Shown piece by piece: positions 36,130 to 44,794 of a stretch of 56,115 bases of DNA. The stretch is from Candidatus Peribacteria bacterium (lineage in GTDB: Bacteria; Patescibacteriota; Gracilibacteria; Peribacterales; Peribacteraceae): contig SICN01000005.1 of the NCBI GenBank assembly GCA_009691405.1, forward strand, positions 1 through 56,115, read 5' to 3'. Under the pieces are notes generated by a model. That model was not told the DNA's origin, did not search any database, and was given only the letters and a program-made list of their open reading frames with translations. A program made the translations under genes and the position numbers. Numbering within the stretch: the first letter of the stretch is position 1; each line of letters starts with the position of its first letter.

Positions 36130-36205
36130 GCAGCGGAAGATCCACCCGCCTACCGGCAGGCAGGTATCTTCCGCGGTACCGCGGAGGTTACGAACCTCCG
36201 CTACG
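36130..36205. repeat. Two-hairpin palindromic element, copy A
   Basis: GCAGCGGAAGATCCACCCGCCTACCGGCAGGCAGGTATCTTCCGC-ggtacc-GCGGAGGTTACGAACCTCCGCTACG. Confidence 0.92.
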
Positions 36206-37964
36206 AAGACTTTGCCATCTGTGTCAGCTTCACCAGCTGCTGGTACTGCGTCAGGAGCTTTGCTTCTTCATCGGCTCTGCCGTTCTTCCTTGCCTCTTTC
36301 AGCTCTGCAATAAGCTGAACCTGACGGGAGACAACCAATTCCCGATTTGCCGCACTGCACATCTTCCTGATTTCCCGCTGCGCCACGATATCGGACCACG
36401 ATGGAAAATTCTCCTCGCAATAGAGTGCAAGAACCTGCATGCGTTCTCGCAGAACTGGATCGATCGTAAGCGGAACCAAGATCTCGATAATCCCAAGCTC
36501 CGGTGCCGCAGATGAGGCGGCGAATCTGACAGCTTCAAGATGGGGTGAGGACAGAGGTATAAGTTCTCTGAGCAACGGTCGACACGTCGGGTACAGAAGT
36601 GCGAGGCCAATCGACAACTCGGCACTTGAAAATGGCGCATCGCCAAGAGCTGCCTTGGCTTCAAGTGTACGAGGCAGTGCAGACACATGTGCGAATGCAC
36701 GAAAATCCTGTGCAAATTCACTCGCTACCACACCAAATTCCTGCGCTGCCTTGTCCAGATAGGCGCGCAATTCCACTGATGTCGGAAGCATAGCAAGCAG
36801 TGGAAACAAGGTCTCCGCAATGCGACGCTTGCCTGCGGGTTCGGTGCGATCCGGAAGGAGCTTCAACCTGCCGATCACCGAGTCGAGATACGGAATCGCC
36901 TGCTCCTGCACGATCGTTCGGAATAATCCCGGATCACGCTGCACCAGTTCATCGGGGTCTTTTGCGGGAAGCGAAACCGAAAGAATCCGAAGCTGCGCCT
37001 TGCTGAGAAGTTCGAATGCCCTTCCCGCTGCAAGCTGACCAGCATTGTCCTGATCAAGACAGAGCACCACTTCATCGGCGTACCGCTTGAGTATTTTCAC
37101 ATGCTCTTCGGTGAGCGCCGTACCGCTCACCGCGACGACATTCTCAACGCCCGCTTTGTGCGAGGCGACGGCGTCGAAGTATCCTTCAACGAGAACGACT
37201 CTATGAGATTTCCTGATCGCATCACGCGCATGAAAAAGTCCGAAGAGCACCGCCGATTTGTTGTAGAGAATGGTCTCCGGAGAGTTGACATACTTCGCAT
37301 CATTTTCACCCATCGTTCTGCCCCCAAACCCGATGATGACTCCTTGCGCATCGGTGATCGGGAACTGGATGCGATGACGGAAGCGATCGTAGATGCGCTC
37401 CTGCTCGAGCTCTTTCTGCACACCGAGACCGCTACCGACAATCTCTGCTCTCGAGAAACCCGCTTTCAAGAGATGCTCATACGTCTCCGAAAATGAATCC
37501 GGTGCGTAGCCGATAGCAAATTTCTCGAGCAGCTCGGCCGTTACTCCCCGCTTCAACACGTAGTCTTTTGCATTCGGCGTCGACTGTAATTTCGATGCGA
37601 AGAAACGAGAGGCGGAATCCAAACATTCGCGAAAGCGTTCCCTTTCATCTTTGCTGACAGCAGGCTTAGTTTGACGCATACCCTCCTTTGGAAGCTCCAC
37701 TCCCGCCTTCTCTGCAAGCATGCGAAGCGCTGAGGGAAAATCGATGCCTTCGATCTTCTGCACGAAGCTGAAGATGTCTCCTCCGCTTTGGCATGCAAAA
37801 CAGTACGCAATGCCCTTATCCGGCGAGACGAGAAGGCTCGGCTTGCTGTCATTATGAAATGGGCAGAGAGCCACAAAACTTTTGCCTTTGCGCTTCAACT
37901 GACAGTACTGACTGACGAGCTGATCGATCGGAAGCCGAAGTTTGATCTCGTCTTTTGCGTCCAC
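36201..37964 (-). CDS. dnaG: DNA primase DnaG (GTG start likely at [11 protein letters not shown])
   Basis: [36 protein letters not shown] (zinc finger), [68 protein letters not shown] (Toprim). Confidence 0.96.
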
Positions 37965-37993
37965 AGGGAGAGAGTATACCTTGGAAATGAAAA

Positions 37994-38099
37994 ATAGCAC
38001 CGCAGCGGAGGTTCGTAACCTCCGCGGTTATGGAGAGTCATTGCTCATATTTGCGGAAGATACCTGCCTGCCGGTAGGCGGGTGGATCTTCCGCTACGG
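37994..38099. repeat. Two-hairpin palindromic element, copy B (inverted relative to copy A)
   Basis: Reverse complement reads CCGTAGCGGAAGATCCACCCGCCTACCGGCAGGCAGGTATCTTCCGC-N27-GCGGAGGTTACGAACCTCCGCTGCGG. Confidence 0.92.
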
Positions 38100-40085
38100 T
38101 TTTTCCTTATTCAAAATCTTGTGCCTCATAAAATATGCACAACCCGCAAGCAAGGCAAGCAGCCCAATCACAGAAAATTCCGGAACAGAGTTGCCTCCAC
38201 CCGCTCCGCTATTCTCACCTTCGCCGCCGGTGCCCTTCAGATTGTCGATATTCCAATAGCCATCGCTCACACTCACGGCAATACCCGTCGTATCAAATCC
38301 TCCATTTGTCGACGTGATCGTGCCCTGGTCATTGGCGACAAAACTCCAGCTGTTGCTTGCGGTGCACCCGAGTGTCGTGGCACCGGAACAGACACGAACA
38401 GAATCGTGCGAGACGCTCTTCGGAACGAAAAGAACGTAGCCTGAACTGTTGTTCACGGTTCTGTATCCTCCGGTCGGGTGAGCGTACGCTGTTTGACCGC
38501 TGGTATTCGCATTGAAATTCGTCGGATTATTGGCAAAAACGTTCCCTGCATATCCGCCGCAAACAAGACGAAAATCGAGCACATATTCCGCGATGGGGAT
38601 ACTACCTTTCTTAATGCGAGCGACATGAACTCCCGTTTGACTGCTTATTTGCGTCAAATCAATCGATTCGTTGTTCGCATCGACGATGGCATCAGCACCT
38701 CCCGAGAGCGTGATGCCGTTCTGCTTGCCGACGCAGCCGCACCAGCAAAAAGGAAATTCAAAATCACCTTTCGGACAAAACCACACGTTACTTGAATTTG
38801 CAGCGAGATAGCCTGCTGAAAAAGTGCCGGTGACTTGCAATGTCATGGAATCGACGTAAGCAGTACCTGTCAGAGCATCGGACAGGAAAAAGAGACAATC
38901 AGCGCTCGTGCATATTGCCGTGAGCGTTGCAGTGACGGCTTTCATTGTAGCGGACGTAAGACCGGTAAGTCCCCAAAGATCACTCGGACCGCCATATTCT
39001 TTCGTTTCATCTCCTCCGGTAGGCCAATCTGTCAGAACAGCCTTGTTTTCGGAAGTGTTCCCATTGATCGTCAAAGTCATAACACTGTCCTTCACATTTT
39101 CAGGAAAAACTGCATCGGTCTTTCGCTCCACCTTCACAGTCATCCCGGAAATCGTTGCACTTGAGTCCGGAATGAAAAACGTAAAGAGTGGTACCAAGCT
39201 TGCGGCCAAAAGATTGCTTGCCAATGTTCTTGTCGCATACACATCATCGCTTCCGATGATATTGGAAGCATTTGTCCATCCGCCGGACACGCTCCGGGGA
39301 TCCTTGAACCTTGTATTGGGGTCGATAACGTACATTCCCGGCAATCCTTCAGGATCGTAGAGATACTCGTACATTCCATCCCCAAGCGGACGAAGGGAAA
39401 TAGGATGGTCGAGAATCCGACCGTGCGTCTCCTGCAGATTCGGAGCATCGGACAGGAAGATGTCGGTACCTCTTTCATCACTCAGCACGATTTCATTCCG
39501 AATGAGACGCTGCCTCAGACCGCTGTCTTGCGTCACGGAAAACCGGAGATCCGCGGGGTCGACCGGACCCGTGACAAATATGTTTTTCATCACGGAAGAA
39601 CCGTGAACGGTAAAGCGAACTGTGATATTCGGAGTCAATGCGTATGCGACAGTATTCGGGGTCTCGAGATGAGCAACAGCATCACCCCGATACGTCAGCG
39701 TGAAAAAGTGACCGCCTTTGCTGAAAGTATAACTCGGATGGAAACGCGAAAACACGACCGAGGCATCCCCTGCCAGTCGATCAAAGACGATACCTTCTTT
39801 AGTCACACGCCCGGTTTCGTCGATCGGAACGAGCACTCCGTTCTCATCATGGGTGAAGACATCGGCGAGCGCCCCGACCGTCACGAATTCTCCGTTTTTC
39901 TTGACGAACGTAACGGTCTTCTCGGTTCGGAGTGGCGGAAACTCGCGATACTCAGACCCGAGACCGTAGGTGAGCGGATCCAAAACGGAATCGACAGGTT
40001 TGAAGGACTGTGCGACAGCCGAAAATGGTATCTGGATGAGCATGAAGACCAGAAGCAGAATCGATGCGGGTAGTCGCTGGTTCAT
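38094..40085 (-). CDS. Secreted surface protein with VPEFS-type C-terminal sorting-like signal (paralogue 1)
   Basis: Signal peptide MNQRLPASILLLVFMLIQIPFSAVAQ; C-terminus GTGGEGENSGAGGGNSVPEFSVIGLLALLAGCAYFMRHKILNKEKP. Confidence 0.8.
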   Translation of the reverse strand: MNQRLPASILLLVFMLIQIPFSAVAQSFKPVDSVLDPLTYGLGSEYREFPPLRTEKTVTFVKKNGEFVTVGALADVFTHDENGVLVPIDETGRVTKEGIVFDRLAGDASVVFSRFHPSYTFSKGGHFFTLTYRGDAVAHLETPNTVAYALTPNITVRFTVHGSSVMKNIFVTGPVDPADLRFSVTQDSGLRQRLIRNEIVLSDERGTDIFLSDAPNLQETHGRILDHPISLRPLGDGMYEYLYDPEGLPGMYVIDPNTRFKDPRSVSGGWTNASNIIGSDDVYATRTLASNLLAASLVPLFTFFIPDSSATISGMTVKVERKTDAVFPENVKDSVMTLTINGNTSENKAVLTDWPTGGDETKEYGGPSDLWGLTGLTSATMKAVTATLTAICTSADCLFFLSDALTGTAYVDSMTLQVTGTFSAGYLAANSSNVWFCPKGDFEFPFCWCGCVGKQNGITLSGGADAIVDANNESIDLTQISSQTGVHVARIKKGSIPIAEYVLDFRLVCGGYAGNVFANNPTNFNANTSGQTAYAHPTGGYRTVNNSSGYVLFVPKSVSHDSVRVCSGATTLGCTASNSWSFVANDQGTITSTNGGFDTTGIAVSVSDGYWNIDNLKGTGGEGENSGAGGGNSVPEFSVIGLLALLAGCAYFMRHKILNKEKP

Positions 40086-40114
40086 GGAAGTAGAGCAGGG
40101 AAAACAGAGAAAAC

Positions 40115-42145
40115 TCAACGCAACACCCACTTTCGCAGAACGTATCCGCAAGAAGCAAGCAGGGCAAGAAGACCGATCGCCGAAAATTCCGGCACCGTCG
40201 TTCCTCCCGCACCGCTGCCTTCTCCTTCTCCGCCGCTTCCCTTCACACCCATAATCTGCCAATACCCGTCTGCAACGGTCGAGGTGATGCCGGTCGTATT
40301 GAATGCACCATTGGGAACGATGGTTCCTTGATCGTTTGCGTAGTAACTCCAGCTGTTTGCGCTCGTGCAGCCGAGCGAAACAGCGCCCGAGCAAATGCGC
40401 ACACGATCGTGAGAGACGCTCTTTGGGATGTAGAGCTTGTAACCGGTGCTGGCTCTGGGATCAAGCGTCGAAATGTGAAAGTAGGATTTCTGTCCACTGA
40501 AATCCGTTTGCACCGTCGCCGTTACATTCCCGCAACCAAAACTCATTCGGATGTCCGCAAGTCTCGTCGAGCCTTTCTTGAATCGAACAAGCTCATCGGT
40601 GCTCCCGCCATTCGTCGCCAAATCGTACGATTCATCACTCGCTCTCACGGCGGTAACGCCATCGGGAAGTGTTGCAAGACCCGCAGGCCCAACACAGCCG
40701 CCACAATGCGCTCCGCATACAAGAGTTCCCGGCGGATTCGCGCCACAAGGAGCATCAAAACCAGTATTTGCGCCGCAGACACCGCACGAACCTGATGTGC
40801 AATCCGCACCGGAAGTGCACGTCATTCCCCATGTCAGAAGATACGTCACGCTCACCCGTACATGATCGACCATGGCTGTGCCAATGGGAGTCTGGCAACC
40901 TGCGCAGGTTGCCACGGCTGCAATTGCAACTCCGAATTTAGTGCTCGTCACATCGGCAGTCGGATTGTTGATATCCGATGCCTGCCAGGCTTCACCCCAC
41001 AAATCTGTTTCGCTTCCGTACGTGACATAGGAGTTAGGGTCACTTGTTGCCCAATTATTCGCATTACTTCTGTCCGTCGATCCGATGACGCTAGTTTTGA
41101 CAATCCTGATTCTGGAATCTTTGACAGTCACTGACTCGCTGAAAGTCGCAGTACGATGGCGCTCTACCTCAACAGTGATTCCTTTAATAAATGCTCCTGT
41201 CGCAATGGAAAAAGCCATGCCCGTAACCCTGAGATAGTTTGTCGAATCACCCGAAGCTGTGATGCTCGATCCTGCATAGGAATCGCCTGACGTTACGGCA
41301 TTCGTAAGGTTTGACCACGATGCAGTTCCGAATCCACCGTCGTTTGCAAACATCAGACCATTAAGGGGTCCTGCCGTTGGATCGATGATGTACGTCTCGG
41401 GAAGTCCGGTTGGATCGTAGTCATATTCGTACAAACCTCCACCGAGTGCCCGAAGTGTGATCGGATGATCCAGTGGAACTCCCGATACGTCCTGCAATGA
41501 CGGAGCGAGTGTTCGGAAAAGAATGTTGGCTTCGGAGGTTTCGAAATCAATTCCATCCGATGTTGTTCTCTGTCGAAGTTCCGCATCCTGCGTCAATGCG
41601 AAACGGAGAGTGCTGCTGTCGACAGGTCCGTCGATTGTGATGGTTTTCCGTATGCCTGCTCCGTGAATCGAAAAACGCAAAATCGCGTGCGGCGAAAGGT
41701 CGTAGCGCACGACATTCGGCTTCTCGAGAATCGCCTCGGCAATTCCTTCGTACGTCAAACGAAAGAAGTGATTCCCGAGACGATACGTGTAACCGGGGAC
41801 GGACGCATCGAAATGCACGCGTGCATTGCGCGGGAGGCGATCGAAAACAATGCCATTTGCCGTGATCTTGCCGGTCTCGTCGATCGGAACGAGTGCACCG
41901 TTCTCATCGTGCGTGAAAATTTCTTCGCCGCTCGACACCGCCTGATACGATCCGTTTGGCAATCGAAACGTCACCGCACCGGTTGTGCGGAAAGAAGAAA
42001 CCTCGACGGCATTCCTGTCGACGCCAAACGTCACAGGGTCGAGCAAGACAGTCACCGGTTCGAAGGACTGCGCAAAGGCTGAAAACGGTATCTGCACAAA
42101 CGTGAACAGTGCGATCAAAACGATAGAAACCATCCGAGTGCTCAT
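40115..42145 (-). CDS. Secreted surface protein with VPEFS-type C-terminal sorting-like signal (paralogue 2)
   Basis: Signal peptide MSTRMVSIVLIALFTFVQIPFSAFAQ; C-terminus GSGGEGEGSGAGGTTVPEFSAIGLLALLASCGYVLRKWVLR; collinear with paralogue 1 (HDENGxLVPIDETGxxTxxGIVFDRL). Confidence 0.8.
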   Translation of the reverse strand: MSTRMVSIVLIALFTFVQIPFSAFAQSFEPVTVLLDPVTFGVDRNAVEVSSFRTTGAVTFRLPNGSYQAVSSGEEIFTHDENGALVPIDETGKITANGIVFDRLPRNARVHFDASVPGYTYRLGNHFFRLTYEGIAEAILEKPNVVRYDLSPHAILRFSIHGAGIRKTITIDGPVDSSTLRFALTQDAELRQRTTSDGIDFETSEANILFRTLAPSLQDVSGVPLDHPITLRALGGGLYEYDYDPTGLPETYIIDPTAGPLNGLMFANDGGFGTASWSNLTNAVTSGDSYAGSSITASGDSTNYLRVTGMAFSIATGAFIKGITVEVERHRTATFSESVTVKDSRIRIVKTSVIGSTDRSNANNWATSDPNSYVTYGSETDLWGEAWQASDINNPTADVTSTKFGVAIAAVATCAGCQTPIGTAMVDHVRVSVTYLLTWGMTCTSGADCTSGSCGVCGANTGFDAPCGANPPGTLVCGAHCGGCVGPAGLATLPDGVTAVRASDESYDLATNGGSTDELVRFKKGSTRLADIRMSFGCGNVTATVQTDFSGQKSYFHISTLDPRASTGYKLYIPKSVSHDRVRICSGAVSLGCTSANSWSYYANDQGTIVPNGAFNTTGITSTVADGYWQIMGVKGSGGEGEGSGAGGTTVPEFSAIGLLALLASCGYVLRKWVLR

Positions 42146-42174
42146 ATGCGAAAAGAAATGTTGAACGCCTGCGG

Positions 42175-43173
42175 TCATTTCCTGCGAGTGATGAATTTTC
42201 TGATGAACGGAAACGCGAGAAGAAAGAAAAGAAAGAAGTAGACGCTCCCGATGACACTGTGAAACAGCGTGAGCGCAAACTCCGGATACTCGATGCCAAC
42301 AAGCATCAGCGTCACAATACGTAGAATATTCAGGAAAAAGACGGCAGTGAGACCGAGCACGAGTGCCAGAAGCGCACGCATCGAAGAGACTTTTTTGACC
42401 GTGCCGAGATAAAATACGAGATAGGTGAAGAAGAGCAGGAACAACAGCATGTACCCGAACCCCGCGCACGCAGCGCCGATGACGACCCGAAATCCGTCGA
42501 TGCTGATGAGCGTGTGCTCGATGTTCACGTACACGTTCCACGAAAAGAGCAGGAGAATCTTCGTGAGAAGCTGCATGATGAATGGAGCCAGCAACGTGAA
42601 GTACACAGCCTCGATCACACTGATGAAGAAACAACCGATGAGCGTGATGTAGATGACGAGTAGTTCCCATCCCTTACTGAGCGCTGTGAGTGGCGCAATG
42701 AACGCGTATGCGGGGAAGAAAGGAGTAACGATCGCAACTGCAACGACTGCGGCGACGATCGGTCCGCCAAGGAGCTTATTTTCTGCAATGAAATTGACGA
42801 TATACTGATAGATCGCATCGCTTGGATGCGTGAGCCAGAGTGCAAAGACGACCGTTGCAATGTAGAGCAGGAGCGAACAGTACTCGAACCAACGGATGCG
42901 CTCCTCAAGAATCGCAGGCGGTGTCGTGCGCGGCGGCTTCAGGTAGGCGCACATGAGGAGCACGAGTGCGAGCCACTCGATCGGAGATGCGGTGTAGTTC
43001 ACGATCTCAAGATGCGGTATGCCAATCAGGCGATCGAACCAAATGCTCGACGTGAGAAACGAACACAGAAATGCAAGCGCGAATGCAACGGAGAGATGCA
43101 GCAATTCGCTCTTGGTGATCCTGTTCCAGAATATTTTGATGTCGCTGATCGTCCCTTGGAAAACCGCATGCAT
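42175..43173 (-). CDS. Exosortase/archaeosortase-family transpeptidase-like membrane protein
   Basis: Multi-TM with DGFRVVIGAACAGFGYMLLFL (Cys), FFLNILRIVTLMLVG (Arg), LTLFHSVIGSVYFFLFF (His): order and spacing of the exosortase Cys-Arg-His triad. Confidence 0.78.
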   Translation of the reverse strand: MHAVFQGTISDIKIFWNRITKSELLHLSVAFALAFLCSFLTSSIWFDRLIGIPHLEIVNYTASPIEWLALVLLMCAYLKPPRTTPPAILEERIRWFEYCSLLLYIATVVFALWLTHPSDAIYQYIVNFIAENKLLGGPIVAAVVAVAIVTPFFPAYAFIAPLTALSKGWELLVIYITLIGCFFISVIEAVYFTLLAPFIMQLLTKILLLFSWNVYVNIEHTLISIDGFRVVIGAACAGFGYMLLFLLFFTYLVFYLGTVKKVSSMRALLALVLGLTAVFFLNILRIVTLMLVGIEYPEFALTLFHSVIGSVYFFLFFLLAFPFIRKFITRRK

Positions 43174-43213: not shown

Positions 43214-44794
43214 CTACGAAAACATCCTCACCATGTCTCTCGGCAAGCGATTCATCACGATGCCTGCTTTCAGCACGCCTCGTCCGACAATCATGTTTCT
43301 TCCCAGAACCGGAAAATCCACGGCAAGAAGAACGTCTCCGTCATCCATGCCCTCTGGCTTCGTCACTGAAAGATTCATGCCTTTCATCATCTCATGCATT
43401 TGCGACTCCGTGATGACAAGTACTTGCTTCGGCGCATCGAGTCCTCTGAGTGTTGCGATTTCATGCGAAAGTCTGACAAGTCCGTGATTCGTGGATTTTC
43501 CAAACGGCAGTCCGCCGAGGATCGGCTGAACACTGAGAGGAAAATCCAGCAATTCCCTCGGCATGATCGAGAGTTGCTCCTTGTATTCCGTCAGCACCTC
43601 ATCTTCTCTGATGAACGACATTCCATACCAATCGATCAAATTCTCCGCGATTTCTTTCACCCTCGCCTTCGGCAATACCGACCACTGATGCGGCTGGTTT
43701 TGCGTTCTCGCATTGCCTCTGTCTCTTGTCGGTGCGCGTTTCTCGAATACTGCACAGAAAAATCCCTCGGTATCGTAGGTCTGAGGCCACAATCGAAGAA
43801 GTGGAAAGTTAAAACTGGAAAGTGGAAAGTTTCCACTCTTTTCCAACGATTTTTGTACGACAATAGAATCTTCTATCGCACGATCGAATCCTGCCTTCAC
43901 GCCTTCGTCACTTTGCACTTTTAACTTTCCACTTTGGATTTCTCTCGGATCAATGACCACTAACTGAGTACTAAATTTGTTCAAGATCGACAGTACCACT
44001 TCCTCGTTCTCTTCGGGCGTGAGCGTGCACGTCGAGTACACGATTCGTCCTCCGACTTTGCATGCGTGGACGGCGGATTCGAGAAGCTCTCTCTGCAATT
44101 TCGCCATTTTGCCGATATTATCCATTGAACAATAATCCAGAGAATCCGTGTCCTTGCGCACCGTTCCCTGCGCCGTGCAAGGAGCATCGCAGAGCACACG
44201 ATCGAATCTCTCCGTCATGTTTCCCGCAAACCATTGCCCGACTTTCCGCGTGACAACCTCGTTCATCACTCCAGATCGTTGCAAATTCGTGATCAAAGAC
44301 CAAATACGTTTCTCCTGCACGTCGTTTGCGATCAGGACTCCCCTGCCCTCCATCCTATCCGCAATTTGCGTTGTTTTGCTTCCGGGTGCTGCGGACATAT
44401 CGAGAATGACGTCACTGGGCTTAGGATCGAGAAGCGCAACAGGCAACATGCTCGCCGCTTCCTGCATGTAAAAACCTCCGAAGAGATGTAGGAGATCTTT
44501 CCCTAAAGCCTCACGCTTAGGTTCATCAACTCGGCTTGCCGGCCATAGCCCAGCCGCAGCGGGCGACGGCCGGTCTATGTAAAATCCCTCGCTGCACCAC
44601 GGCACGGGTTCGAGCGTCCAGTTCTTGCTCTTTCCCCATGCTTTAATTTCCTCGACCGTGCACTTGAGCGTATTCACGCGAATCGATTTCCGAAGTGGCT
44701 TAGCACTGCTCGCATTCAGAGCGGAGAGATCGGTGAATGGAGCGTAACGGCTGAAAGCTCTGAGCATCGCCGAAGAGTCGAAGGCTTTGAACAT
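43214..44794 (-). CDS. NOL1/NOP2/Sun (RsmB/RsmF)-family RNA m5C methyltransferase
   Basis: ILDMSAAPGSKTTQIADRMEGRG, FDRVLCDAPCTAQGTVRKD, GGRIVYSTCTLTPEENEEVV. Confidence 0.93.
   Translation of the reverse strand: MFKAFDSSAMLRAFSRYAPFTDLSALNASSAKPLRKSIRVNTLKCTVEEIKAWGKSKNWTLEPVPWCSEGFYIDRPSPAAAGLWPASRVDEPKREALGKDLLHLFGGFYMQEAASMLPVALLDPKPSDVILDMSAAPGSKTTQIADRMEGRGVLIANDVQEKRIWSLITNLQRSGVMNEVVTRKVGQWFAGNMTERFDRVLCDAPCTAQGTVRKDTDSLDYCSMDNIGKMAKLQRELLESAVHACKVGGRIVYSTCTLTPEENEEVVLSILNKFSTQLVVIDPREIQSGKLKVQSDEGVKAGFDRAIEDSIVVQKSLEKSGNFPLSSFNFPLLRLWPQTYDTEGFFCAVFEKRAPTRDRGNARTQNQPHQWSVLPKARVKEIAENLIDWYGMSFIREDEVLTEYKEQLSIMPRELLDFPLSVQPILGGLPFGKSTNHGLVRLSHEIATLRGLDAPKQVLVITESQMHEMMKGMNLSVTKPEGMDDGDVLLAVDFPVLGRNMIVGRGVLKAGIVMNRLPRDMVRMFS

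Follow-up and report, generated by a model that had tools for sequence, protein, structure and literature searches.

A dedicated exosortase-type sorting cassette most probably occupies three adjacent genes of a Candidatus Peribacteria (Patescibacteria) genome, in which a membrane transpeptidase would cleave two surface proteins at a VPEFS signal and couple them to a membrane nucleophile in the manner of archaeosortase A (ArtA). The genes lie in the window, that is, the whole stretch of 56,115 nucleotides that was analyzed, which is contig C14 of a genome of 1.01 Mb (G000), and the closest named record for the enzyme is a Candidatus Peribacteria MAG with 93% identity (Table 1). The case is built on family membership, catalytic residues, tripartite tails, co-occurrence of enzyme and tag, tracking of the tag with the enzyme, and insertion of the genes into an otherwise conserved locus.

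Table 1. Features of the putative sorting cassette and the ordinary sortases of the same genome
Feature	Position	Strand	Remarks
Three-gene cassette, whole	38094..43173	(-)	Between rsmF (43214-44794) and dnaG (36201-38000)
Exosortase/archaeosortase-family membrane transpeptidase (predicted), 332 aa	42175..43173	(-)	TIGR04178 and PF09721 matches; Cys236, Arg285, His305
Substrate 1 (putative), 676 aa	40115..42145	(-)	Signal peptide, ectodomain, Gly/Glu/Ser linker, VPEFS-TM-basic tail
Substrate 2 (putative), 663 aa	38094..40085	(-)	Paralogue of substrate 1
Substrate 1 sorting tail, VPEFSAIGLLALLASCGYVLRKWVLR	40118..40195	(-)	VPEFS codons 40195-40181; tail HMM E 5.9e-26
Substrate 2 sorting tail, VPEFSVIGLLALLAGCAYFMRHKILNKEKP	38097..38186	(-)	VPEFS codons 38186-38172; tail HMM E 3.9e-24
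Ordinary sortases (PF04203)	G000:C15:54579-55007; G000:C44:933-1337		

The product of the first gene is, by its profile matches, a member of the exosortase/archaeosortase superfamily with predicted catalytic activity. It scores 40.9 bits against the superfamily signature TIGR04178 (cut-off, 23), which is matched by all 12 Peribacteria homologues, and 25.9 bits against the Pfam model Exosortase_EpsH (PF09721), barely above the cut-off of 25.7. The sequence-only reading had proposed such an enzyme from the order of its Cys, Arg, and His motifs, and both the models and the alignment bear this out: the motifs GAACAGFGY (aa 233), NILRIV (aa 282), and LFHSVIG (aa 303) hold C236, R285, and H305, none of which varies among the 12 Peribacteria homologues or the other CPR (Patescibacteria) exosortases of our tree. 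Hydropathy analysis gave about 7 to 10 hydrophobic segments, partly overlapping, in keeping with the approximately eight helices expected of the superfamily; the AlphaFold model (pLDDT 41, from a two-sequence alignment) is too poor for counting helices, and a PDB sequence search with the enzyme returned no credible relatives. A small tree groups the Peribacteria enzymes in a single clade (support, 0.94) with a subclade A, consisting of the window enzyme and those of G001, G002, and G051 (support, 1.0), and a subclade B (support, 0.935). The exosortase of G049 (L034), which belongs to the same family and is followed by a gene for a large multi-TM protein, was excluded from the clade as a different type in another neighborhood.

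Among the named NCBIfam models, the enzyme reached 26.4 bits for XrtX (cut-off, 170), 23.4 for XrtK (cut-off, 55), 22.7 for ArtC (cut-off, 100), and 20.8 for XrtH (cut-off, 86), and ArtA was absent from its matches. Because these scores lie far under the cut-offs, the enzyme is placed in the superfamily and in none of these subfamilies; membership in XrtX, XrtK, ArtC, XrtH, XrtR, or XrtE was rejected at 18.5 to 26.4 bits against cut-offs of 55 to 170. The earlier suggestion of a possible new subfamily agrees with this result and with the separate clade in the tree.

Downstream of the enzyme gene are two co-oriented ORFs with C-termini ending in ...GGEGEGSGAGGTTVPEFSAIGLLALLASCGYVLRKWVLR and ...GEGENSGAGGGNSVPEFSVIGLLALLAGCAYFMRHKILNKEKP, and the ORFs and codons of the two paralogous signal-peptide proteins with linker, VPEFS, TM segment, and basic tail, as first described from the sequence, could all be located. 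The two proteins share 45% identity. Their signal peptides start at Met codons at positions 42145 (with an alternative Met at 42178) and 40085, relative to which the program-made ORF starts at 42670 and 40394 are overlong. No domain was matched in a Pfam and NCBIfam scan of the ectodomains and no credible relatives were returned by a PDB sequence search with a substrate; the AlphaFold substrate model is of low confidence (pLDDT 32, from 3 sequences). The cysteines noted earlier in a Cys-rich middle region are present, but the insert that carries them is not conserved across the family, in which a CSG-x(n)-LGC pair in the C-terminal domain is more widespread; a role of the substrate cysteines in disulfides or metal binding is weakly supported. 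Every tail of subclade A retains a cysteine in its helix, in surroundings that resemble a lipobox (LLASC, LLAGC, LAGC, and SLAC), and by topology this residue is expected near the inner face of the membrane.

Established tail models recognize these C-termini poorly. The PEP_CTERM model (TIGR02595) gave 14.8 bits for tail 2 (cut-off, 16) and no match for tail 1; PEF_CTERM (TIGR03024) matched only the G051 tail (VPEFPFLG), at 14.7 bits (cut-off, 23); and the VPFF-type tails of relatives (see below) matched none of the CTERM or anchor models tried. From the enzyme and tail scores together, the VPEFS system has no proper fit among the named Xrt/Art subfamilies or the CTERM models. The one score above a cut-off was that of tail 1 with the LPXTG_anchor model (16.4 bits; cut-off, 15.9). 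As the genome encodes two PF04203 sortases, this marginal score might point to processing of the tails by an ordinary LPXTG-type sortase. We consider this most improbable, since neither window tail contains an LPXTG motif, tail 2 falls under the cut-off of the same model, the sortases are on contigs C15 and C44 while the exosortase adjoins the substrates, and different exosortase clades go with different tags. The C44 sortase is near a 1,396-aa ORF that shares a domain with residues 264 to 450 of substrate 1.

A search of 144 genomes (the host's own and those of relatives) at an E value of ≤0.001 found the enzyme in 11. A VPEF-tail HMM applied to 96 genomes retrieved six tails at E values of ≤5e-22, exclusively in the four subclade A genomes (two each in G000 and G001 and one each in G002 and G051), and the next two matches had E values of 0.0075 and 0.008. 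This gap, from ≤5e-22 to about 0.007, indicates that the tail is no chance pattern. The match at 0.008 is itself a genuine VPFF tail in the enzyme-bearing genome G037. Genes neighboring the subclade B enzymes encode C-termini with VPFFSWW-type tails, and a VPFF[SP]-x-W tail HMM searched against 138 genomes gave E values of <1e-5 only in the seven subclade B genomes (G003, G013, G026, G031, G037, G050, and G061). At the DNA level, a PFFSWW pattern revealed two more tails in the enzyme-bearing G003, whereas genomes without the enzyme yielded no protein tail; matches in G069 and G101 were rejected as they are not C-terminal tails. In these tail scans for co-occurrence with the enzyme, of the kind proposed in the sequence-only reading, strong VPEF tails (96 genomes) and VPFF tails (138 genomes) are thus confined to enzyme-bearing genomes.

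The seeds of the tail HMMs came partly from enzyme neighborhoods, which makes the presence side of this correlation circular in part. No such circularity affects the absence side: about 127 genomes that lack the enzyme clade also lack such tails. Moreover, tails were found independently of the position of the enzyme in G003 (by the motif pattern), in G050 (by ectodomain homology), and in G037, where the weak VPEF match is on a contig other than that of the enzyme. Enzyme and substrate genes are neighbors in G000, G001, G051, G013, G026, G031, G061, and G003 and are separated by one gene in G002. In the latter genome, the enzyme gene comes after one (L014:2-9079) whose 3,025-aa product combines FG-GAP repeats with an endosialidase-chaperone domain.

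The ectodomains that carry the VPFF tag are unrelated, with NHL repeats in G026 and a short ectodomain in G013, and in G050 an ectodomain of the window type carries a VPFF tail. The occurrence of the tag on unrelated ectodomains and the mixed case of G050 suggest that the tag follows the enzyme rather than the ectodomain. A helix with basic residues suffices as an anchor, and the LPXTG_anchor model, which looks generic, accepts tail 1, so the tails could in principle be ordinary C-terminal membrane anchors with the exosortase acting on other targets. That reading is very unlikely given the retention of V-P-[EF]-F before the helix on unrelated ectodomains, the restriction of strong motif matches to enzyme-bearing genomes, and the adjacency of enzyme and substrate genes. 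A cognate pairing of enzyme and substrates is, by comparison of these genomes, well supported by the HMM match of the enzyme, its invariant Cys, Arg, and His, and the lack of strong tails in enzyme-less genomes.

In the window, the cassette interrupts an rsmF-dnaG-rpoD locus that is otherwise conserved: it begins past the rsmF stop codon, and its end precedes a conserved GGTATACTC that lies ahead of dnaG. The junctions in G001 agree with those of the window, and the second substrate of G001 is split across two contigs. In eight relatives (G002, G027, G051, G006, G008, G009, G019, and G023) rsmF and dnaG are adjacent, and in G002 and G051, which are of the same genus, enzyme and substrate are found elsewhere in the genome, away from rsmF-dnaG. 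This arrangement argues for the gain or movement of enzyme and substrates as a unit. No clear flanking repeat and no mobile-element or transposase gene was seen at the cassette edges, and a search of a plasmid collection found no relative of the enzyme.

In the proposed mechanism, the N-terminal signal peptide would direct export of the substrates, which the C-terminal helix would retain in the membrane with VPEFS facing outward. We infer that Cys236, helped by the Arg and His, cleaves at VPEFS, the presumed position, and becomes linked by a thioester to the newly made C-terminus. This thioester would then be resolved by a nucleophile associated with the membrane, most probably a lipid, and the ectodomain would be anchored again. 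The precedent is ArtA, for which lipid anchoring is described together with a speculative model of a Cys thioester attacked by a lipid amine (PMC7157517), and by homology ArtA-type chemistry is likely in the window enzyme. The CDP-alcohol phosphatidyltransferase and phosphatidylserine decarboxylase families (PF01066 and PF02666) make the proposed lipid donor of ArtA. Neither family was matched in seven Peribacteria genomes (G000, G001, G002, G013, G031, G037, and G051), while controls matched, and a self-made phosphatidylethanolamine donor is therefore unlikely. The reaction might be completed by a scavenged lipid, by another nucleophile, or by hydrolysis. The absence of these families in the seven genomes also suggests that membrane phospholipids are obtained otherwise.

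Hydrolysis would make the enzyme a dedicated C-terminal protease that uses water as the acceptor, removing the helix and releasing the ectodomains to the S-layer or the medium. This outcome is possible but clearly the less probable one: the lack of the head-group families for a self-made aminophospholipid in the seven genomes speaks for it, while the flexible Gly/Glu/Ser linker suits release as well as anchoring, the sequence fits both outcomes, and the experimental precedent of ArtA is lipid attachment (PMC7157517). Returning to the sorting cassette with a membrane acceptor, we regard as a long shot its boldest extension, namely, that an ultra-small, probably host-dependent bacterium anchors its surface proteins to host-derived phospholipid, a lipid beyond its own synthetic capacity, with a tag that co-evolves with the enzyme and a three-gene cassette that travels.

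Of 380 genomes sampled from the phylum, 16 scored above the TIGR04178 cut-off, some of them with VPE/IPE-type tails next to the enzyme, so exosortases are sporadic in Patescibacteria. Genes beside other CPR exosortases (L105, L109, L112, and L113) encode proteins with the tails VPEYGWLGG, IPEFGLLG, VPEKSLILL, VPEAALLL, and IPERLWLL, which, judging by this placement, are probably further cognate tags. In the literature, PEP-CTERM/exosortase is presented as a Gram-negative system and archaeosortase as one of archaea (PMC3237569). Our literature search found nothing linking exosortase with Peribacteria, Peregrinibacteria, Patescibacteria, or monoderms, which is weak evidence as few subscription journals were covered; for exosortase and the Candidate Phyla Radiation, it returned hot-spring virus work. 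The VPEFS system thus occurs in a group for which we found no earlier report. Sister enzyme clades have distinct tags, VPEF in one and VPFF-x-W in the other, and in some cases both tags occur within one ectodomain family; with a minimal system of one enzyme and one or two substrates, enzyme-tag specificity is directly testable. Given the lack of phospholipid head-group genes, the nature of the acceptor becomes a question in its own right.

Compared with known systems, exosortases X, K, and H are the next best HMM matches of the window enzyme, below their cut-offs. Archaeosortase C/PEF-CTERM of methanogens is weakly similar in both enzyme (22.7 bits) and tail (G051, 14.7 bits), but these scores are far under the cut-offs of 100 and 23, the window host is bacterial, and sister genomes have VPFF for VPEF. 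With the EpsH-type exosortase/PEP-CTERM systems of Gram-negative bacteria, the window shares the EpsH Pfam match, tripartite tails, and signal peptides; it differs in that PEP_CTERM scores below the cut-off and for one tail only and in that window-type systems have one or two substrates, whereas PEP-CTERM systems often have at least twenty (PMC3237569). In contrast to archaeosortase A/PGF-CTERM of Haloferax volcanii, the window motif is VPEFS, and the seven Peribacteria genomes are without the head-group families implicated in ArtA-dependent lipidation. The two systems are alike in superfamily, in the Cys, Arg, and His residues, and in a tripartite tag of motif, helix, and basic residues, and CPR cells likely have a single membrane with an S-layer, as does the host of archaeosortase A.
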